Positions 15,002 through 34,432 of a stretch of 44,295 nucleotides of DNA are shown here, piece after piece; position 1 is the first letter of the stretch; every line of letters starts with the position of its first letter. The notes beneath the pieces were generated by a model. That model made no database searches and had not been told where the DNA came from. It saw nothing but the letters and a program-made list of their open reading frames with translations. The DNA lies in NCBI GenBank assembly GCA_030427785.1, contig JAUICR010000002.1, positions 1-44,295 on the forward strand, given 5' to 3'. This DNA is from Bacteroidia bacterium. GTDB lineage: Bacteria; Bacteroidota; Bacteroidia; Flavobacteriales; Schleiferiaceae. Position numbers and translations under genes: made by a program.

Positions 15002-15024
15002 TTTATTCTAAGAAATTTTTTAAG

Positions 15025-15060
15025 AATCCCGTTTAGGAATCAGCCTAGGCGGGATTTTTT
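15025..15060 (+). terminator. Rho-independent terminator of the sdh operon
   Basis: AATCCCGTTTAGG pairs with CCTAGGCGGGATT over 13 bp (two G-U wobbles) around a 6-nt loop, followed by six T. It lies 23 nt after sdhB. Confidence 0.85.
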
Positions 15061-15440: not shown

Positions 15441-18400
15441 ATGAAAACCAAAAATTACCCTGGCTTAAGAGCTTATACAACCAAAATCGCTATGAAAGCC
15501 TTGTTGGCCATTGTAGCCTTATGTGCAATTCCCATAGCGTTACAGGCGCAGTGCGGACCGCCTACTATTAGCTGTCCGACCAATGTAAGTCAAGCGGCTG
15601 AAGCCACAAAGTGCGTGGCTATAATAAACTACCCCTTGCCAACTTTTACGGCACCTTGCGGGCTTCCACCTGATTCCATATTGGGTTTTACAACTCTGGG
15701 CAGTTTTCAGGGTAAAACCTACTACATAAGCAATAGCGGTATGACAGCTCCTGCCGCCTATGCCGATGCCCAAGGGCATGGCGGGTTTGTGGTTACCATC
15801 AACAATGCCGCTGAAAACGAGTTTGTACGCAAAGCCATGTCACAGGAGGCTACCACCGCATGGATTGGTTACAGCGATGCAGCTACAGAGGGTACCTTTG
15901 TATGGCAGGATGGGGATACCTCTACCTACAACAATTGGAACTTGGGTGAGCCCAACAACCAAAACGGTGAGGATTATACCCAAATGTATAACAACGGGAC
16001 CTGGAATGACCTGGATACATTGCAGATATACCGTTATATACTGGAGCTCTCCGGTGGGTTTGAGCAAACCTCTGGTCAGGCTAGTGGTAGTGTTTTTGGC
16101 ATAGGAACAATCACCAACACCTTTGAGGTAACCGATATTATGGGCAACAGCGCGAGCTGCTCTTTTACAGTAACTCTTATGGACACCACCGCACCTGTAA
16201 TCGTTTGCCCTGCCAATGTAACGGCAATAGCAGATAGTAATAGCTGCACTGCCTATGTGCCCCTGAGGCTCGACAGCGTCTTTGAACAATGCAGTTACAT
16301 TTCTACCCAAAGCCCAATCTCCACCTATGTTTTCGATGGAAGCGGTGGTACACAGGATATAGTGTTGCAAATACCTCTGCCTCAGCTGCCAGCCAGTGCT
16401 GGAACCCTTACCATCCTTCACAGGGGGGATATCAATAATTCAGGATCCGAGCAATTTGAAATAAGGGCCGAGGACAATAGCTTGCTTGGACTTACTACTA
16501 ACGGCAACCAATGCGATAATTTCTATACGCATACTACTATACATGTTACCACGAGCCAGCTTTTGGCTTGGGCCACCAATGATACCGTTACCATTACTTT
16601 GGCACAGGGAACTGCCGTAAATGCTACCCTTTGTTCTAGTAATGACGCCTTTGCCTCCCTTTCATACTCCACTGCTAATATTACCAACTCCTTCACATCA
16701 GGCGGTGCCGATGCCAGCGGGAGCTATCCTCTAGGTAATACTCAGGTTGTGTTTACTGCTACAGACCAAAGTGGCAATATTGATAGCTGTACGGTTACCG
16801 TTACGGTAAAGGATACAACAGCTCCTGTTATAACATGTCCTAGCGATATTATAGTTAGCAACGATGCAGGGGTTTGTGGTGCTAAAGTTTGTTATACTAT
16901 GCCATATTCTAGCGACTTGTGTGAGCCAAGTGTACCAGCAGGTTTGAATTTGGTAAAACAAATGGGTAATATCAGGTACTATAAATCCAACGCTTTTATA
17001 AGTTATAGTGCGGCTAAATCTCTAGCCAATTCCATTGGAGGGAATCTGGCAAAAATTACGTCTGATGCATTGAATGATACCCTGTTTAACGCAACTGGCG
17101 GTTTGGTGTGGATAGCTGGGACGGATGAGGAAACTGAAGGAGTTTGGAAATATGACAATTGTGAGCCACTTACCTATCAAAACTTTCATGCTGGTGAACC
17201 AAACGACTTCGGTAGCGGAGAGGATTATCTTGAACTTTCTACCACAGGTGATTGGTACGATTATGGGCCTTCGGCATCAAGATTTGCCTTAATTGAAGTG
17301 GAAGGTGCTGGCGTTGTCCAAATAGCCGGTTTGCCCAGAGGCTCGGTTTTTCCAATTGGCATTACTACCAATACGTTTGTAACCACTGATGCTAGTGGTA
17401 ACTCAGACACTTGTTCGTTTACTGTAACGGTAAATGATACCACCTCTCCAACATTCTTTACTGATAGTATATGCTTAGGTGACAGCCTTTATGTAGGTGG
17501 TGGGTGGCAAACGGTTCCTGGTGTTTACATCGATACTGCAACAACTGCAAGCGGATGTGACAGCCTTTTAATTACAACTTTATATTACAGGTCAAATTCT
17601 ATTTGCAATCCGGATACTACCGAGAGGATGCTGTATATCGTTTCAGACTCAGCATGGACACTTAGTAATGTCGTAAGTACTGCGACTTCTAACAGCTACC
17701 CTTGGCCGGGCGCAGCTAATATGCTGCCTCATGATTCCACTTTTGTATTAGCTGCAGAAGTAGGTCAGCCCTACCCTTGGAATCACCTTTACACTGTAAT
17801 GGGTAGCCAAGTGATAAAAGCCTATAGTGGTGTAATGTATTATCGCTACGAGTTTGAGCTTACCAATCATCAGGCGCTAAATGCACGATTTAGAATGTTT
17901 GTAGATGATAACATGCAAATCTTTGTTAACCGCCATGAAATTGCTTTGGAAGAAGATATGGGTAAGGAGAACTGGCGTACCGCAAACCACGATATCCTGT
18001 TTAATGACAACGGTACCATTGATAACGGTTATTTAGGTGGAGATACTTTTGATACCTATACAGCTGTAAGTCCTGATAACATTTTTGTAACAGGAAATAA
18101 TGATATCATACTGGCTATACGAAATCGTACTTCTAAGCCCGATAAAGGTGGATTCTCTTTCCGTATGGATTTAGATAAAGCTGGTCAGGCAGTAATTGTT
18201 AAGAAGGACGCAAGTTTTGAAGCTGGTCTTTCAATTAATCCAAGTTTCGAATTGTATCCAAATCCAGTGGTTGATCAGCTTAGTTTGGTAATGAAAACTG
18301 CTATAAGTGATGTGGACTATACAGTAACTATAACTGATATATCAGGAAGAGTGTTAAGTGTTATTTCACAAAGCGGAAGTGAGCTACAGGAAACTTCAAC

Positions 18401-18491
18401 TATTAATGTTTCCAGTTATGCCCCTGGAGTTTACTTTGTTAAAGTGAACTCGGGTACACAATCAGTAGTTAAGAGATTTGTGAAACGCTAA
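15441..18491 (+). CDS. T9SS secreted protein with HYR domains hosting C-type-lectin guests
   Basis: 1016 residues. A signal peptide ends near residue 37 (IALQAQ); M18 at 15492 is an alternative start giving a more standard leader. Three HYR domains follow, each split in the same loop by a guest. Guest 1 (about 80-205) and guest 3 (about 500-622) are C-type-lectin-like, with WIGYSD or WIAGTDE, the EPN motif (GEPNNQNGEDY, GEPNDFGSGEDY) and WND/WYD, suggesting Ca-dependent sugar binding. Guest 2 (about 286-408) is a different beta-rich domain. HYR halves resume with ASGSVF, ASGSYPLGN and GLPRGSVFPIG. Residues 730-925 match both repeats of the protein at 32.9 kb. Residues 937-1016 (YPNPVVDQLSLV, DISGRVLS, GVYFVKV) are a type A T9SS sorting domain. 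A surface carbohydrate-binding role is inferred. Confidence 0.88.
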   Translation: MKTKNYPGLRAYTTKIAMKALLAIVALCAIPIALQAQCGPPTISCPTNVSQAAEATKCVAIINYPLPTFTAPCGLPPDSILGFTTLGSFQGKTYYISNSGMTAPAAYADAQGHGGFVVTINNAAENEFVRKAMSQEATTAWIGYSDAATEGTFVWQDGDTSTYNNWNLGEPNNQNGEDYTQMYNNGTWNDLDTLQIYRYILELSGGFEQTSGQASGSVFGIGTITNTFEVTDIMGNSASCSFTVTLMDTTAPVIVCPANVTAIADSNSCTAYVPLRLDSVFEQCSYISTQSPISTYVFDGSGGTQDIVLQIPLPQLPASAGTLTILHRGDINNSGSEQFEIRAEDNSLLGLTTNGNQCDNFYTHTTIHVTTSQLLAWATNDTVTITLAQGTAVNATLCSSNDAFASLSYSTANITNSFTSGGADASGSYPLGNTQVVFTATDQSGNIDSCTVTVTVKDTTAPVITCPSDIIVSNDAGVCGAKVCYTMPYSSDLCEPSVPAGLNLVKQMGNIRYYKSNAFISYSAAKSLANSIGGNLAKITSDALNDTLFNATGGLVWIAGTDEETEGVWKYDNCEPLTYQNFHAGEPNDFGSGEDYLELSTTGDWYDYGPSASRFALIEVEGAGVVQIAGLPRGSVFPIGITTNTFVTTDASGNSDTCSFTVTVNDTTSPTFFTDSICLGDSLYVGGGWQTVPGVYIDTATTASGCDSLLITTLYYRSNSICNPDTTERMLYIVSDSAWTLSNVVSTATSNSYPWPGAANMLPHDSTFVLAAEVGQPYPWNHLYTVMGSQVIKAYSGVMYYRYEFELTNHQALNARFRMFVDDNMQIFVNRHEIALEEDMGKENWRTANHDILFNDNGTIDNGYLGGDTFDTYTAVSPDNIFVTGNNDIILAIRNRTSKPDKGGFSFRMDLDKAGQAVIVKKDASFEAGLSINPSFELYPNPVVDQLSLVMKTAISDVDYTVTITDISGRVLSVISQSGSELQETSTINVSSYAPGVYFVKVNSGTQSVVKRFVKR
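17628..18215 (+). repeat. Copy of a ~180-residue domain shared with the 32.9 kb gene
   Basis: Codons 730-925 share with the gene at 32.9 kb a series of blocks: LPHDSTF, GQPYP, YRYEFELT, RFRMFVDD, NW then HDI, NGYLGGDTFD, IFVTGNND, KGGFSFRMD and VIVKK. The order and spacing are the same, so the domains are homologous. Confidence 0.75.
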
Positions 18492-18536: not shown

Positions 18537-18567
18537 GAAGCCCCGAAGAAAATTTCTTTGGGGCTTC
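18537..18567 (+). terminator. Terminator after the HYR/lectin gene
   Basis: GAAGCCCCGAAGAAA and TTTCTTTGGGGCTTC form a near-perfect stem (one G-U wobble; the innermost pairs must open), 45 nt after the stop. It is followed by CTTATTTAT rather than a pure T-run. Confidence 0.75.
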
Positions 18568-22002: not shown

Positions 22003-25000
22003 ATGAAGAAAATCTTACTTTTTCTAAGCATTATTTCGTCCGTTTTTACTATGAGCGGTCAAATCACCGCCCCTTTTACGGAGAGCTTTAACTCTGGTTT
22101 ACCAACAGGTTGGGCAAATAATTCTATTGACCCATGGAAGTTTGGAGGAACTATGGGTTATGACGCTAGTTCTGTTACAGATCATACTGGGACCTTAGGA
22201 AGTGTGTATGCCTGGATTGACGGATCTGGCGGAACAAACGCTTCAGCACCCTTAACTACAGACTCAATTAATATGGGAACTCTTACCACACCTGAGCTTT
22301 CATTTTATTTGAGTAGTTATAATACAACCAATGCCTCAACGGGTTTCAACACTTTTACTGTTGATTTTTACGATGGATCCGCGTGGCATGATTCTGTTTT
22401 TGTGCACCAAGGAGACTTAGGGCCAATGTGGACGTATGTTGTGGTTGATTTAAGTATCTATACTATCACTGGTAAGTGTTTGATTCGTTTTGATGTAAAC
22501 ACTACAACGGCCGGAACTGCATTTTACAATGATATAGCCATTGATGATATTAAGGTAGACAATGCCCCGCCTTGTCCTCTTGCCACTGGGTTAAAGGTAA
22601 ATGCGATAACCGCTTTTACGGCCGAATTAGACTGGAACCCAGTAAATGGCGCTACCGGTTATGAGGTAATTTATGATACTGTAGGATTTGATCCTGCCGT
22701 AAATGGTACCAGTGTATTAGTTACTCCTGATTCGTTAAACTTAACAGGATTAATGGGTGCTACCACCTATCAGTTTTATGTTATTTCTGATTGTGGAATA
22801 AACGGTATTGGTGATACAGCAGGGCCTGTTACATTCAAAACTTCGTGCGTGCCGCTAACAGGTACTACTTACTCAAACAATTTTGCCAACGATGCAACAG
22901 GTAACCCACCTAGCTGCTGGACTACCTATACGGCAGGGCCAAATGCCAACTTTATCAACGCCAATGTGGTGAATCACACTGGGCCCTATAGTACACCCAA
23001 TCATTTAGCTATTTATAGCTATGCTCTAGGAAACGACTCTGTAATAAGCATTACTCCGCAGTTTACCACCTTGCCAGCCAAAGACAAGCAAATTTCTTTT
23101 TACGCAAAGTCACCTAGTTCAGGTAATGGAATTATTGTAGGGACCTTAAGTTCTCCTACTAATATTGCGAGCTTTTCGCCTGTTGATACCATTATGGTTA
23201 CCTCCGGTTATGTAGAGTATATTTTATACTTTGATAGTCTATCTGCGTACAATGGGGTAGATGAGTATATTGGGTTAATGCATAATAGTGGTGCTACTTT
23301 CTCTACTATTTATGTAGATGACTTTAATTTTGCACCAATTCCTGCATGTCCTAAGCCAACCTCTTTGAGCCTGGTTTCTAAAACTGACACTACAGCCACA
23401 ATAAGTTATGTAGGCACAGGGGGAGCACATGACATTTTTTGGGGCCCAACAGGTTTTCTTCAAGGGAGCCCCGGCTTAGGTTTGGTAACTAGTAGTAGCA
23501 ACCCTCATACAATAGATTCACTACTGTATCCAGGCGGTTGTTTTGATGTATATGTTCGAAAAAATTGTGGAGTAAATGGATTATCGGTTTGGGCTGGTCC
23601 TTTGACGTTTTGTACCAATTGCGCTACTCAACAAATGCCCTTTTATGAGAGTTTTACTAATTGGCCACTCAATTGCTGGGATACCGTAGGAGGTTCTCGC
23701 TATTGGGCTGAGTACACTACATTTGGTGGGCCACCTACTGGTATTGCCGAAGCTAATTTTTGGGGATGGCCAAACCCCAATGATGCCATGCTTACCACAG
23801 CGCCAGTAAATATATCAGCGCAAGCTCAAATTAGGTTTCAATGGGCACACCTGTACAACAGTAGCTATCCTGATGACGCGTTAGCAGTAATGGTAGAGAA
23901 AAACGGAAGTGGAATATGGGATACTGTTAGATACCTTACAGGACCTACGTTTACTTCGCCAGGTGCTCAAAGTACGGCACCTCCTGTTAGTCAGCCCTTT
24001 ATCGAAGAAATTATTGTTCTTGATTCTGCAAAGTACACAGGTCATAATGTAAGTGTGAGGTTGTGGGCTATTTCAGATTATGGTCCAGATTTATTTATCG
24101 ATAATTTTTATGTAGAACAGGTACCATCTTGTATTCCTCCTAGTGCATCGGGTATGGGTGTGGGCTTTGTAAGTTCTAATAGTGCTAATGTGTTTTGGTC
24201 TGGTGGTTTAGGAGTTTCTTCTAATATTCAATGGGGAACTGTAGGGTTCACTCCAGGAGCAGGAAATCCGCAAGGGTCCGTACCAGGAAATGATTCTACT
24301 TATACTATTACAGGACTAACGGCCAATACAAATTATGAGTTTTATGTACAAGATAGCTGTACAGGTAGTGCAGGTTTAAGTTCGTGGGTTGGTCCATTTG
24401 CTTTCCGCACGGCATGTTCACCCTTTACGGCTCCATACACCCAAAGCTTTGACGGCCCATTTTGGGTAGCTGGAAGTAATACTGGAAATAATGATTCTAT
24501 CGATCCTTGCTGGACGAGAAATCCTGATGGAAGCTCCTTTAGCTATGATTGGTCAGTACTAAATGGTCCTAGTATTTTTGGTACTACTACAGGTCCTGCA
24601 ACAGATAATAGCGGTACAGGTAATTTCCTTTACACCGAAGTAATATATGGTAGTGCTAATGACATAGCGTACATGATTTCTCCAATTATTGACGTAAGTG
24701 GATTGACAGTTCCTTATGTAGAGTTTTATTCGCATAGATGGGGATCTAACCTTGGGAATATGGAGGTACAAGTAAATGATGGTTCAGGATGGACTACCAT
24801 GATTACTTTAACAGGCCAGGAGCAATCTGGTGCTGCTGATCCGTGGAAAGAAAAAGGTTTTGATATTTCTAGTTTTGGCGATACCATTCAGGTTCGTTTT
24901 AAAGCCATCAGCAGTGGTTGCTGTTCAGGTGCGATGGCTATTGATGATTTTGCAGTAAAAGAGGCACCATCATGTCCTACTCTGGCTGGGCAGATGGTAG

Positions 25001-27684
25001 GGGGAGTTACTGATTCTTCAGCATCATTTACTTGGTTTGCAAGCTCTAGCGCTACTTCGTACGAAATGTGGATTGGTCCTATCGGATTTTATCAAGGTAC
25101 AGCTACCACCGCTGGGTTTAAGTCTATTCATATGTCCGACAGTGTTTATACGGATACTTTATCAGCAAATACATGTTATGAATATTTGGTTAGAGCTATT
25201 TGTGGCCCTGGAGATACAAGCCAATGGTCAGGGCCAATTTCTTGGTGTACACCATGCGTGTCCTTCAATGCACCTTATATTCAAACCTATGATAACTGGC
25301 CACTTAGCTGCTGGCAAGTAGATGCCGGTTCTTTTGATTGGGTAAGTTTTACGGGTGGTTATGCTGAGGCTAGTTTCTGGAGTAACTCTACAGGTGAGGC
25401 TATTATGATATCTCCAGTGATTAATCTGAATGCCAATGTTGCTCAAGTAGAGTTTGATTGGTCGCACTTGTACAGCTCGAGCTATCCTGATGATCGTTTG
25501 GTTGTTATTGTAAATAAGGTAGGTACCACTCTTATGGATACTATTGTAGATATTTCAGGACCTACTACATTCAATGATCCAACAGCTGGAAATTTAACCC
25601 CTGGAAATTTCATTAATAGAATTGAGATATTAGATTCAGCTACTTATGCTAATTCGTCTATTCAAGTGCATATGATCGGTATAACAGATTATGGTCCTGA
25701 TTTATTTATTAATGACTTTAAAGTAAAATACCCGGTAAGCGATGACCTTGCCTTGCTTAGCGGTAAGTTTAGTAAAAAGAGTAAGTGTTTAAGTGCAAGC
25801 GATACCGCAATATTTGAGGTTAAGAATGTGCTTGGAAGTACTGTGAATTTTGCCACTAACCCACTTACTATTAATTATAGTGTAATGGGTCCTGTAAATA
25901 CCACAAGCAGTGTAACTGTAAATACGGGTTCATTATTGGTAGGCGATACCGTTTCGGTTTTAGCTACAAATATTGACTTAAGCACTCCTGGCGTTTATAC
26001 CATGAATGCATGGTTGTCACCCAATAGTGTGAATTTAGATGCTCTTAATGATACATTGTTATCCAATGTGAATATCACCGTTTATGATGTGTTTGAAGTA
26101 AATCCTGATTCTGTGGTAACTATTACTAATACAACAGATACGGTAGTTATGGAAGCGAAGTCACCTTTCTTGAGTGGCGGAACCTTCTTCTTCAGTGAGA
26201 TCTGTCATTACTATAATTTCGGATCAAATCCAGGAACGATACCTCCGTATTTAACGGCAGATGATTATGTTGAAATTACAGGTGTACCTGGGTCTGATCT
26301 TGGTGGAATTACATTTGAGCAATGGAGCACTACGGCTCTTATGAGTTCATACACTTTCCCTCCAGGAACCCTTATTGGTCCAAATGGAACAGCCATTATT
26401 ATGACTGGCCAAGGTGGTGGAGCATCACAGCCGGCTAACTTTATGTATGATGGTCGTGGTACTTTTACCGGTACTTTCAGCTCAGGAGGGTCTAATGGTC
26501 GTATCCTTAAATCAGGAAGCACCATAATAGATGCAGTAGGTTATAACACTACTTATTCTTTCCCTGCTGCTTCAGGAGTCACTGCGGCTGATTGGTCAGG
26601 CTTTACAGGATCTACAAGTGGTACAGCAGGTATCAGACTGAATGGTGCAGATAATAATACTGCTTCCAACTGGTCTGTAGTTACTGCAACTAACCCACAG
26701 AATGCTCAGGTAATAAATGCGGGTGTAAGCGTTCCTGCCGGAGGTGCCACTACTGGTTTCTCATGGATGCTCAATGGTATGATGTATGACACACTTCCCA
26801 AAACGGTAGGTGGTCCTTATTCGCAATCAGGTATTTACAATTATATAGTTACCCTTCCTAGCCCATGCGGTACGTTTACAGATACGGTTACGGTAATTGT
26901 AAACTTAGGAGGACTGTGCTTGCCACCTACCACTGTTACTCCTACAGTAGAAGCTTGTGATAGTGTAGTTATTGACTGGACTGGCGCAGCTGATTCAGCC
27001 ATTGTGAGCTGGGTAGCTACCGGAGGAACACCAACCGGAGGTACGCTTGTAATGGGCGATAGTACTTATACCATTACCGGTACCAGTGCCAATACTACTT
27101 ACGATGTGTATGTAGCCAATATTTGTAATGGCGACACTGCAGTAGGTGGACCTTATACCTTTAGCACCGGTAATGTAGGCGCACCTGTTGCAGCCTTTAC
27201 ATGGATGTCGCCAGGGTGGAATTTGAGTGTAGACTTTGACGCTAGTACAAGCACAGGAAACGGTAATACCTATACCTGGAAGTTTGGCGATGGAAACACC
27301 GGAACTGGTGAAACTCCAACGCATGTGTATGGTACAGGAGGTACTATGACAGTTACCTTAATTGTGAGCAACAGCTGTGGTGTGGATAGCGTTACTACCG
27401 TTCTGAATGGTATTAGCCTGCAAGAAGTAGCTCTGGGAGCTTCAGTAGCTATCTTCCCTAATCCTGCTAAGGATGTTGTAAATCTTGAGTTAGAGTTTGA
27501 ATCAGATGAGGATGTGGTGATTAGTGTGCTTAGTGTAAGCGGAAAACTAATCTTCTCCAAATCTTATGAAACAGGTAGTACGGTTAAAGACCAACTGGAT
27601 GTATCAAACTTAGCAGATGGAGTGTATATGATTAAAATTGAAACCAGTCGTGGTTCAGTAAATCATAGACTTATCAAAGAGTAA
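22003..27684 (+). CDS. Large modular T9SS protein (MAM-like, Fn3, lamin-tail, PKD)
   Basis: 1893 residues with a signal peptide (1-20). Five jelly-roll modules of the MAM/choice-of-anchor type (each ending near AIDDIKV, VDDFNF, IDNFYV, IDDFAV or INDFKV) alternate with fibronectin-III-like domains (TYQFYVISDCG, NYEFYVQDSC, CYEYLVRAICG) up to about residue 1245. A CARDB-like domain spans about 1246-1370. A lamin-tail-like domain spans about 1390-1555 (DDYVEITGVPGSDLGG, NGTAIIMTG, IIDAVGYN). One more Fn3, a PKD domain (about 1727-1800, TYTWKFGDGNTGTGETPTHVY) and a type A sorting domain (about 1813-1893, FPNPAKDVVNLE, GVYMIKIE) complete it. No catalytic domain was recognised. Likely cell-surface or secreted adhesin or scaffold. 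Confidence 0.88.
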   Translation: MKKILLFLSIISSVFTMSGQITAPFTESFNSGLPTGWANNSIDPWKFGGTMGYDASSVTDHTGTLGSVYAWIDGSGGTNASAPLTTDSINMGTLTTPELSFYLSSYNTTNASTGFNTFTVDFYDGSAWHDSVFVHQGDLGPMWTYVVVDLSIYTITGKCLIRFDVNTTTAGTAFYNDIAIDDIKVDNAPPCPLATGLKVNAITAFTAELDWNPVNGATGYEVIYDTVGFDPAVNGTSVLVTPDSLNLTGLMGATTYQFYVISDCGINGIGDTAGPVTFKTSCVPLTGTTYSNNFANDATGNPPSCWTTYTAGPNANFINANVVNHTGPYSTPNHLAIYSYALGNDSVISITPQFTTLPAKDKQISFYAKSPSSGNGIIVGTLSSPTNIASFSPVDTIMVTSGYVEYILYFDSLSAYNGVDEYIGLMHNSGATFSTIYVDDFNFAPIPACPKPTSLSLVSKTDTTATISYVGTGGAHDIFWGPTGFLQGSPGLGLVTSSSNPHTIDSLLYPGGCFDVYVRKNCGVNGLSVWAGPLTFCTNCATQQMPFYESFTNWPLNCWDTVGGSRYWAEYTTFGGPPTGIAEANFWGWPNPNDAMLTTAPVNISAQAQIRFQWAHLYNSSYPDDALAVMVEKNGSGIWDTVRYLTGPTFTSPGAQSTAPPVSQPFIEEIIVLDSAKYTGHNVSVRLWAISDYGPDLFIDNFYVEQVPSCIPPSASGMGVGFVSSNSANVFWSGGLGVSSNIQWGTVGFTPGAGNPQGSVPGNDSTYTITGLTANTNYEFYVQDSCTGSAGLSSWVGPFAFRTACSPFTAPYTQSFDGPFWVAGSNTGNNDSIDPCWTRNPDGSSFSYDWSVLNGPSIFGTTTGPATDNSGTGNFLYTEVIYGSANDIAYMISPIIDVSGLTVPYVEFYSHRWGSNLGNMEVQVNDGSGWTTMITLTGQEQSGAADPWKEKGFDISSFGDTIQVRFKAISSGCCSGAMAIDDFAVKEAPSCPTLAGQMVGGVTDSSASFTWFASSSATSYEMWIGPIGFYQGTATTAGFKSIHMSDSVYTDTLSANTCYEYLVRAICGPGDTSQWSGPISWCTPCVSFNAPYIQTYDNWPLSCWQVDAGSFDWVSFTGGYAEASFWSNSTGEAIMISPVINLNANVAQVEFDWSHLYSSSYPDDRLVVIVNKVGTTLMDTIVDISGPTTFNDPTAGNLTPGNFINRIEILDSATYANSSIQVHMIGITDYGPDLFINDFKVKYPVSDDLALLSGKFSKKSKCLSASDTAIFEVKNVLGSTVNFATNPLTINYSVMGPVNTTSSVTVNTGSLLVGDTVSVLATNIDLSTPGVYTMNAWLSPNSVNLDALNDTLLSNVNITVYDVFEVNPDSVVTITNTTDTVVMEAKSPFLSGGTFFFSEICHYYNFGSNPGTIPPYLTADDYVEITGVPGSDLGGITFEQWSTTALMSSYTFPPGTLIGPNGTAIIMTGQGGGASQPANFMYDGRGTFTGTFSSGGSNGRILKSGSTIIDAVGYNTTYSFPAASGVTAADWSGFTGSTSGTAGIRLNGADNNTASNWSVVTATNPQNAQVINAGVSVPAGGATTGFSWMLNGMMYDTLPKTVGGPYSQSGIYNYIVTLPSPCGTFTDTVTVIVNLGGLCLPPTTVTPTVEACDSVVIDWTGAADSAIVSWVATGGTPTGGTLVMGDSTYTITGTSANTTYDVYVANICNGDTAVGGPYTFSTGNVGAPVAAFTWMSPGWNLSVDFDASTSTGNGNTYTWKFGDGNTGTGETPTHVYGTGGTMTVTLIVSNSCGVDSVTTVLNGISLQEVALGASVAIFPNPAKDVVNLELEFESDEDVVISVLSVSGKLIFSKSYETGSTVKDQLDVSNLADGVYMIKIETSRGSVNHRLIKE

Positions 27685-32923: not shown

Positions 32924-34432
32924 ATGAAAAAAATTACTACGCTGAGTATGAACCTGTGGTTTGTATTCGTTTCACTTTTGGCAACATCTCACGGAGCTTT
33001 TGCTCAGTTGGATTCAGCCTATTGTGTTTCAGATTCAACTTGGAACATTAGTACGACAACTACCACTTCTACCGTATTGGGATACTGGAGTGGAGTACAC
33101 GGAGTTTTACCAGACACTTCAACCTTTACTTCCATGGCAATGATTGGTCAGCCATATCCATTTCACACCATAGACTCTGTGGAAGGTGCCTATGTTATCA
33201 AAGCAGCGAATAACATTTCCTATTATCACAAAAAACTTATTCTTGACACCCTTTCTGATTTGTCAATACGATTGCGATTGACGGTAGATGATCATGCTGA
33301 GGTGTATATCAATGGTGTGCGCTTAGTGGGTATTTACGATACTATTGAGAGTTCCAATTGGCATAACCCTTCTTTTGATGTGATGATAGCAGAGGATGGT
33401 ACTGTTACCAATGGCTATATGGGTGGTGAAGCCTATGATTCGGTTACTACCGTAGATATGGATAGCCTGTTTAATATTGGTAGCAACGACATTATAGTGG
33501 TATGTAGAAATATGGCTACTGCCACCGACAAGGGAGGGTTTTCTTTTAGATTGGATGTTAAAGGAACTTCAGGAGTAGTTACTGTTGGAGAGTTTGTGTC
33601 AAAACCAGGGGTGCATAAGAGCACGGTAATTACGCCAACTAACTATAGTGGACACTGGAGTGGTGTGGCTGGAGTATTGCCTCACGATAGTACATTTACA
33701 ATACCTGCCGTACAAGGGCAGCCTTATTCCTTCCATTCTTTAGATTCAGTGCCAGATGCATGTGTAATCAAAACTGGAAATATGATTACTTATTTCCGTT
33801 ATGAATTTGACCTTACGTCTAATGATTCTCTAAATGTTCGATTTAGAATGAATGTGGACGATGCAATGGAAATTTATGTGAATGATCACTTTATAGCTCG
33901 TGAGGGTACTAATTCTAAGTTAAACTGGAGAGGCCCTAACCATGATATTAAGTTTTCTATGAGTGGAGCAGTGTCAAATGGATTTATGGGTGGTGATGCC
34001 TTTGATGCCTATACTAGTGATACTATGAGCAATATTTTTGTGACCGGAACCAACGAAATTATTGTGGTGGTACGCAATCAGAAAAAGTCGGGTGACAAAG
34101 GTGGATTCTCTATTAGAATGGACATTGACTCTGACGGTAAGAGTGTAATTGTGAAAAAGAAATCAGCACCAGCCAGCATACTACCGTCTGATAGCAACCC
34201 GCTTACTGCTGATTTATACCCTAATCCAACACATGGTACTGTAAACATCCTGATAGATGAGGACACGAACTATGACGTGTATGTATATGATATGAGTGGT
34301 AGAGTGGTTAAAACAATGACAGATCAGTACCGTCATGCAGAGTTTGATATTACCGAGTTTGCACAAGGTGTATACTTTGTAAAGGTGATATCCGGTACAA
34401 GAACCTATGCCACTAAGGTGATGAAGCAATAA
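32924..34432 (+). CDS. T9SS secreted protein with two copies of a beta-rich domain
   Basis: 502 residues: signal peptide 1-28 (SHGAFAQ), domain copy 1 at about 34-215, copy 2 at about 228-405, and a type A sorting domain at 429-502 (LYPNPTHGTVNI, DMSGRVVKTM, GVYFVKVISG). Each copy carries WSGVxGVLPxDSTF, GQPYxFHxxDSV, a central strand set ending FRMNVDDAMEIYVN or LRLTVDDHAEVYIN, NW, NGxMGGxAxD, and KGGFSxRxD. The RFRM-VDD-x-E-x-YVN pattern resembles PA14 or galactose-binding jelly rolls. The same domain occurs once in the protein at 15.4 kb. Secreted; ligand unknown. Confidence 0.85.
   Translation: MKKITTLSMNLWFVFVSLLATSHGAFAQLDSAYCVSDSTWNISTTTTTSTVLGYWSGVHGVLPDTSTFTSMAMIGQPYPFHTIDSVEGAYVIKAANNISYYHKKLILDTLSDLSIRLRLTVDDHAEVYINGVRLVGIYDTIESSNWHNPSFDVMIAEDGTVTNGYMGGEAYDSVTTVDMDSLFNIGSNDIIVVCRNMATATDKGGFSFRLDVKGTSGVVTVGEFVSKPGVHKSTVITPTNYSGHWSGVAGVLPHDSTFTIPAVQGQPYSFHSLDSVPDACVIKTGNMITYFRYEFDLTSNDSLNVRFRMNVDDAMEIYVNDHFIAREGTNSKLNWRGPNHDIKFSMSGAVSNGFMGGDAFDAYTSDTMSNIFVTGTNEIIVVVRNQKKSGDKGGFSIRMDIDSDGKSVIVKKKSAPASILPSDSNPLTADLYPNPTHGTVNILIDEDTNYDVYVYDMSGRVVKTMTDQYRHAEFDITEFAQGVYFVKVISGTRTYATKVMKQ
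33023..33568 (+). repeat. Domain copy 1 (of two in this gene)
   Basis: Codons 34-215. It aligns with copy 2 over the whole length: GVLPDTSTF/GVLPHDSTF, GQPYPFH/GQPYSFH, RLTVDDHAEVYIN/RMNVDDAMEIYVN and KGGFSFRLD/KGGFSIRMD. Copy 1 is the more diverged of the three copies in the window. Confidence 0.8.
33605..34138 (+). repeat. Domain copy 2
   Basis: Codons 228-405. It is closer to the copy in the 15.4 kb gene than to copy 1 in several blocks (LPHDSTF, YRYEF/FRYEF, GGDxFDxYT, IFVTGxN, VIVKK), which suggests exchange between the two genes or retention of ancestral sequence. Confidence 0.8.

Follow-up and report, generated by a model that had tools for sequence, protein, structure and literature searches.

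HYR domains split by nested guest domains in a predicted type IX-secreted surface protein of a Schleiferiaceae bacterium

Introduction

The RTX adhesins of Proteobacteria, which are type I secreted, contain split Ig-like domains that turn ligand-binding modules off the adhesin axis, as in FrhA/UKD, AhLap, and MpIBP (PMC10865825, PMC12077191). The AhLap paper mentions neither C-type lectins nor hyalin nor HYR (PMC10865825/PMC12077191). HYR modules form repeats of ~75 aa in HycP of Clostridium cellulolyticum, which has a CBM3 at its C-terminus, and some bacterial HYR arrays have no assigned function (PMC3723904). A 2026 survey of domain insertions, the main text of which mentions neither HYR nor lectins, reported inserts mostly smaller than their hosts (median 115 versus 199 aa; PMC13114784). 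In the literature that we searched, coverage of which was incomplete, we found no description of HYR domains that host guests.

Here we analyze an open reading frame from a Bacteroidia bacterium of the family Schleiferiaceae (GCA_030427785.1). The window is the whole stretch of DNA analyzed, namely positions 1 to 44,295 (44,295 nucleotides) of contig JAUICR010000002.1. A first-pass annotation made from the sequence alone had proposed that three HYR domains of the encoded protein each host a guest domain in the same loop.

Results

Gene and protein layout

The open reading frame (Table 1) lies between a succinate dehydrogenase iron-sulfur gene on one side and a CBS-domain gene on the other. Given the terminator-like hairpins before and after it, the gene is probably transcribed alone, as a monocistronic unit; the pattern scan counted no more such hairpins than were found in shuffled sequences. 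The encoded chain runs from a probable signal peptide through N1-guest 1-C1, N2-guest 2-C2, and N3-guest 3-C3 to a linker, a C-terminal domain, and a sorting tail, the last being the C-terminal sorting domain characteristic of type A cargo of the type IX secretion system (T9SS), in keeping with a Bacteroidota genome. The linker ("SICLGDS...") is conserved in the sister genome G002, where it directly follows the nested unit. The C-terminal domain (aa ~731-918) matched no Pfam family and has many paralogues within the genus, mostly immediately N-terminal to a T9SS tail. Paralogues in its own genome lie on contigs C99, C38, C20, C48, C263, and C53, and a further copy occurs in the window at 33263-34426, within the open reading frame at 32924-34432. 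The window also encodes a second large T9SS cargo at 22003-27684, a protein of 1893 aa with fn3, MAM, and PKD domains.

Table 1. Coordinates of the gene, its flanking hairpins, and the segments of the encoded protein.
Feature	Position	Strand	Residues	Details
Terminator-like hairpin 5' of gene	15022-15059			pattern scan
ORF	15441-18491	+	1016 aa	
Signal peptide, probable	15441..15548	+	1-36	MKTKNYPGLRAYTTKIAMKALLAIVALCAIPIALQA; hydrophobic N-terminus, judged by eye
HYR unit 1 N-half	15561..15659	+	41-73	Cys45, Cys58, Cys73; N-half HMM E 4.7e-5
Guest 1, C-type lectin domain	15660..16055	+	74-205	Lectin_C match
HYR unit 1 C-half	16056..16187	+	206-249	Cys240; C-half HMM E 2.9e-12
HYR unit 2 N-half	16191..16292	+	251-284	Cys256, Cys269, Cys284; pairwise z only
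Guest 2, beta-sandwich	16293..16691	+	285-417	AF2 pLDDT 82-92 in core
HYR unit 2 C-half	16692..16814	+	418-458	Cys450; C-half HMM E 1.1e-11
HYR unit 3 N-half	16824..16922	+	462-494	Cys466, Cys479, Cys494; HMM E 6.3e-11
Guest 3, C-type lectin domain	16923..17312	+	495-624	Lectin_C 1.4e-5
HYR unit 3 C-half	17313..17441	+	625-667	Cys658; C-half HMM E 2.1e-14
Linker module	17442..17630	+	668-730	SICLGDSLYVGG...GCDSLLITTLYY
C-terminal domain, lineage-specific	17631..18194	+	731-918	
Type IX secretion sorting domain, type A	18252..18488	+	938-1016	PF18962 1.9e-15, TIGR04183 3e-14
Terminator-like hairpin 3' of gene	18537..18567	+		pattern scan

Three interrupted HYR domains and their guests

Against the whole protein, the HYR family PF02494 scored 94.6 bits (curated cut-off 21.7; E 4.6e-27) over partial stretches, and the C-halves of all three units exceeded the cut-off. 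Models of half HYR domains detected two N-halves (aa 41-71 and 462-494) and three C-halves (aa 214-248, 425-458, and 634-666). The N-half of unit 2 stayed under the threshold in the half-HMM scan and was recognized by its likeness to those of units 1 and 3 (z 7.1 and 5.6, respectively); across the three units the shells were alike, with z of 5.6-7.1 for N-halves and 9.3-12.8 for C-halves. All four conserved HYR cysteines are present in each unit. Rather than forming uninterrupted HYR domains of ~80 aa, the halves of units 1-3 lie ~139-142 aa apart, and the units are thus an interrupted variant of the HYR domain, broken at the third HYR cysteine (C73, C284, C494). The genome has four PF02494 matches, each covering a C-half only: three are those in the 1016-aa protein, and the fourth is encoded on contig 48, in a protein of 2587 aa that has a jelly-roll-like guest at the same place.

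Both guest 1 and guest 3 belong to the C-type lectin domains (PF00059); the assignment is strongly supported for each, and for guest 3 from its sequence only. The two resemble each other (z 11.4), and the model of guest 1 gave a VIA Z of 22.1 to collectin-11, with 120 residues (51-170 of the model) aligned at an rmsd of 1.0. Guest 1 carries the full Ca2+/sugar set (EPN at 170-172, E177, and WND at 188-190), and these residues align with those of Endo180 lectin domain 2 (EPNN...ED...WND). In guest 3 (EPN at 586-588, E594, and WYD at 605-607) one Ca2+ ligand position is altered and the set is incomplete. Animal C-type lectin domains typically are disulfide-bonded, and most have cysteines. The two conserved cysteine pairs of canonical C-type lectins are absent here, guest 1 having no cysteine at all and guest 3 only C574. 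Guest 2 is a beta-sandwich unrelated to guests 1 and 3 (z 0.0 and -1.9). It matched no Pfam family and is CBM-like only weakly, its matches among solved structures being weak, jelly-roll/CBM35-like (CBM35/CBM6-like), with Z of 7-8 and low identity.

The first-pass reading of three HYR units, each with a guest in one loop, is thus borne out by half-HMMs, pairwise z scores, and an AF2 model of unit 1, as is its view that guests 1 and 3 are C-type-lectin-like with EPN motifs and that guest 2 has a different fold. It had ended the first half near the second cysteine, which has to be moved to the third, and its guest of ~120 residues is indeed present between the halves but is larger, at about 130-142 aa, the exact size varying with the assignment of the re-entry strand.

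Evidence for nesting

Given that MAFFT placed every homologue on unit 1 in a joint three-unit alignment, units were modeled apart with AF2, each with the neighboring half as a competitor. The construct of aa 36-290 therefore contained N1, guest 1, C1, and the competing N2. Its model had a mean pLDDT of 85.7; the shell strands of N1 and C1 and the lectin were mostly at or above 90, while the competing N2 half was mostly below 50 and disordered. Structure prediction, which had been proposed with the first-pass annotation, thus agrees with nesting for unit 1. The model of unit 2 (aa 207-500) had a confident guest 2 core and as a whole was only moderate (pLDDT 69.5).

Cysteine co-occurrence provided evidence independent of AF2. 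In 301 distinct plain HYRs, Cys1 (of "CP") and Cys4 (of "TCSF") were both present in 273 and both absent in 28, and neither was ever found alone (p 4e-40), which points to a probable disulfide between the first and second half. In nested units these two cysteines flank the guest on opposite sides. Among 33 such units, 30 had both, three had neither, and none had one alone (p = 0.0002, kinship ignored); this set combines 30 units (28 with both, two with neither) and three more (two with both, one with neither). The three losses of the pair, in Labilibaculum, G672, and G050, occurred in different families and with two kinds of guest. Such co-occurrence suggests a link between the two halves that spans the guest.

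A search with the half models in HYR-rich Bacteroidota loci showed that a C-half follows 340 of 342 N-halves. The gaps between them were bimodal, with 316 plain-HYR pairs at 0-39 aa, in which the halves are adjacent in the order N then C, and 22 distinct gaps at 138-287 aa; the loci were picked for HYR content and nested matches, and these counts do not estimate frequency. The long gaps had numbered 24 before one masked stretch and one duplicate locus were removed: the 75-aa gap in L170 was dropped as a masked stretch, and the pair with a 170-aa gap in L045 and L144 is a single locus, counted once. The separated HYR halves that the first-pass annotation had suggested seeking in other Bacteroidota therefore do occur. 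Taken together, the AF2 model, the cysteine co-occurrence across the guest, and the bimodal gap, which are largely independent lines, strongly support a predicted arrangement in which each HYR domain is cut open at the same loop with its guest nested inside.

The slot in other Bacteroidota

Nested units were found in 22 genomes, which represent at least nine families, and held at least seven kinds of guest: the lectin, guest 2, the contig-48 guest, P_proprotein, ALK_LTK_GRD, Reelin_subrepeat-B, and unnamed beta folds. Lectin-in-HYR units covering most or all of the profile occurred in the sister genome, in Labilibaculum, and in G439, G626, G730, G731, G711, and G672. Full-length lectin units were present in three other families and Labilibaculum; within the order of the window, among the sampled genomes, they were confined to this genus. 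Guest 2 sat in HYR units of G131 (twice), G710, G157, and G250. This domain also stands free directly behind signal peptides in other Bacteroidota, for example in L183, L184, and L187 (matches near position 1501), and the domain has the clear motif GD...E...G..LG......C.......W...G. At the same slot, P_proprotein (P-domain) guests were found in G340 and G377, a Reelin_subrepeat-B guest in G338, and unnamed beta-fold guests of at least two kinds in G340, G377, G019, and G050. An ALK_LTK_GRD guest was detected in G403 at 1.6e-26, under the cut-off in G472, and by resemblance in G488 and G705. ALK/LTK glycine-rich domains are known from animal receptor kinases. In L218 and L220 (from G403 and G705), L162, and L165, the glycine-rich guest (PF12810, 1.6e-26 in L218) occupies the first HYR, behind the signal peptide.

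Most nested units share the re-entry strand xTQxAGLxSG, some guest-2 units using a different sequence, and the position of the slot is therefore constant within a few residues. That one loop docks unrelated guests, as first supposed from this gene, is consequently strongly supported by sequence comparison across unrelated Bacteroidota. The glycine-rich and reelin-like guests have no known sugar ligand, which indicates that a guest need not be a lectin. Shells of different guests were intermixed with plain HYRs in the shell tree, which was poorly resolved, the shells being too short (four of 97 inner branches strongly supported); the tree hence does not distinguish independent gain from guest swapping. 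No nested unit was found in a viral scan or a plasmid search, and a PHROGs search gave no match.

Discussion

Of the systems compared, the split domains of RTX adhesins come closest. In both, an Ig-like sandwich is interrupted by a larger domain that the chain enters and leaves at adjacent points, differing guests occur within one protein, and the host is completed after the guest, as predicted here from models and sequence. The RTX adhesins are also large surface adhesins. Unlike them, the protein described here uses HYR (PF02494) as host, with the conserved Cys1-Cys4 pair, and belongs to the phylum Bacteroidota, with a T9SS tail in place of type I secretion and RTX repeats. The break in HYR comes after ~33 aa containing three cysteines, whereas in FrhA it comes after a single 12-aa strand, and the HYR guests (C-type lectin, P-domain, ALK/LTK glycine-rich, reelin-like) differ from RTX guests. 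By analogy, then, the protein is a T9SS/HYR counterpart of the RTX split-domain presenter, one that would work like the RTX units and is not a member of the RTX family.

The other comparisons are more distant. Intimin and invasin are linear proteins of Ig-like and C-type lectin domains in which the lectin is the terminal bead. Phage tentaclins similarly combine Ig-like domains with a terminal C-type lectin fold (PMC10743442). Ig-like domains and a lectin are thus common to all of these, but only here is the lectin inserted in the Ig-like domain. Plain tandem HYR arrays, as in hyalin and HycP, are of the same domain family, and the CBM3 of HycP lies outside its HYR modules (PMC3723904). The guests here, at 130-290 aa, exceed their host of ~78 aa, the reverse of the size relation in the surveyed insertions (PMC13114784).

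We consider it likely that the protein is a split-holder T9SS surface protein whose nested guests make it a multivalent adhesin. It would be exported by the T9SS to the cell surface. The chain would form the first HYR strands, exit past the third cysteine, fold a whole guest domain, and return as the xTQxAGLxSG strand to finish the HYR sandwich, the two halves of which a Cys1-Cys4 disulfide would staple together. Each guest would sit sideways on the HYR stalk, the chain entering and leaving it at one place, and would expose its far face. Given its complete EPN...E...WND set, guest 1 is expected to bind mannose/fucose/GlcNAc-type glycans with Ca2+, while guest 3, with WYD, would be an altered lectin or a weaker one. 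Guest 2 may be another module that binds carbohydrate or protein, as may the C-terminal domain, and the complete protein would adhere to polysaccharide particles or other cells. Display, in the sense of ligand presentation by the nested HYR, is proposed from the likeness to RTX adhesins; stiffness or protease resistance is another role that the pattern could have.

A linear string of beads, in which separate, complete Ig-like domains flank the lectins and guest 2 and the apparent halves arise by chance or as a C-half permuted with the next N-half, would fit the partial HYR stretches that Pfam reports in the 1016-aa protein. We regard it as scarcely tenable, given that AF2 models C1 together with N1 at high confidence and leaves the offered N2 disordered, that the presence of Cys1 tracks that of Cys4 on the other side of the guest, and that the halves of plain HYRs are adjacent, N then C, in 316 pairs. 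It is also very improbable that a single ancestral HYR gained one lectin and was then copied, with no general slot. The restriction of full lectin-in-HYR units to this genus among the sampled genomes of the window's order agrees with such an accident, but full-length lectin units in three other families and Labilibaculum, the occupation of the slot by at least seven kinds of guest, and the mingling of shells of differing guests with plain HYRs in the poorly resolved tree all speak against it.

Nesting without adhesion deserves more weight, although we still judge it unlikely: the guests would be structural decoration for spacing, protease resistance, or protein contacts and have no glycan ligand. 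The altered Ca2+ ligand position of guest 3, the lack of cysteines in guest 1, unlike most animal lectin domains, and the high diversity of guest kinds are in keeping with this, as is the existence of bacterial HYR arrays with no assigned function (PMC3723904). On the other hand, guest 1 retains the full EPN/E/WND set, guest 2 is weakly CBM-like, and the split domains of RTX adhesins hold ligand-binding modules (PMC12077191). We therefore favor the multivalent adhesin with nested guests.

Beyond this protein, nesting would account for the "half" HYR matches that profile searches return in many giant proteins of Bacteroidota, and it offers a rule for finding hidden ligand-binding modules, namely to search between the third HYR cysteine and the ASGS strand. 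It would also extend split-domain presentation beyond RTX adhesins to another phylum, secretion system, and host domain. A slot that accepts guests of 130-290 aa could be a natural docking site for protein engineering. More tentatively, and with some doubt on our part, the HYR loop may be an exchange socket of Bacteroidota surface proteins, in which recombination swaps unrelated binding modules as cassettes; if so, a cell could re-tool its adhesins with the stalk design unchanged. The targets of diversity-generating retroelements use the lectin fold. Finally, L141 (G781) and L142 (G765) each carry a C-type lectin at the matching loop of an HYR-like domain with neither the CP nor the ASGS motif, and the slot may thus exist in related Ig-like domains as well.
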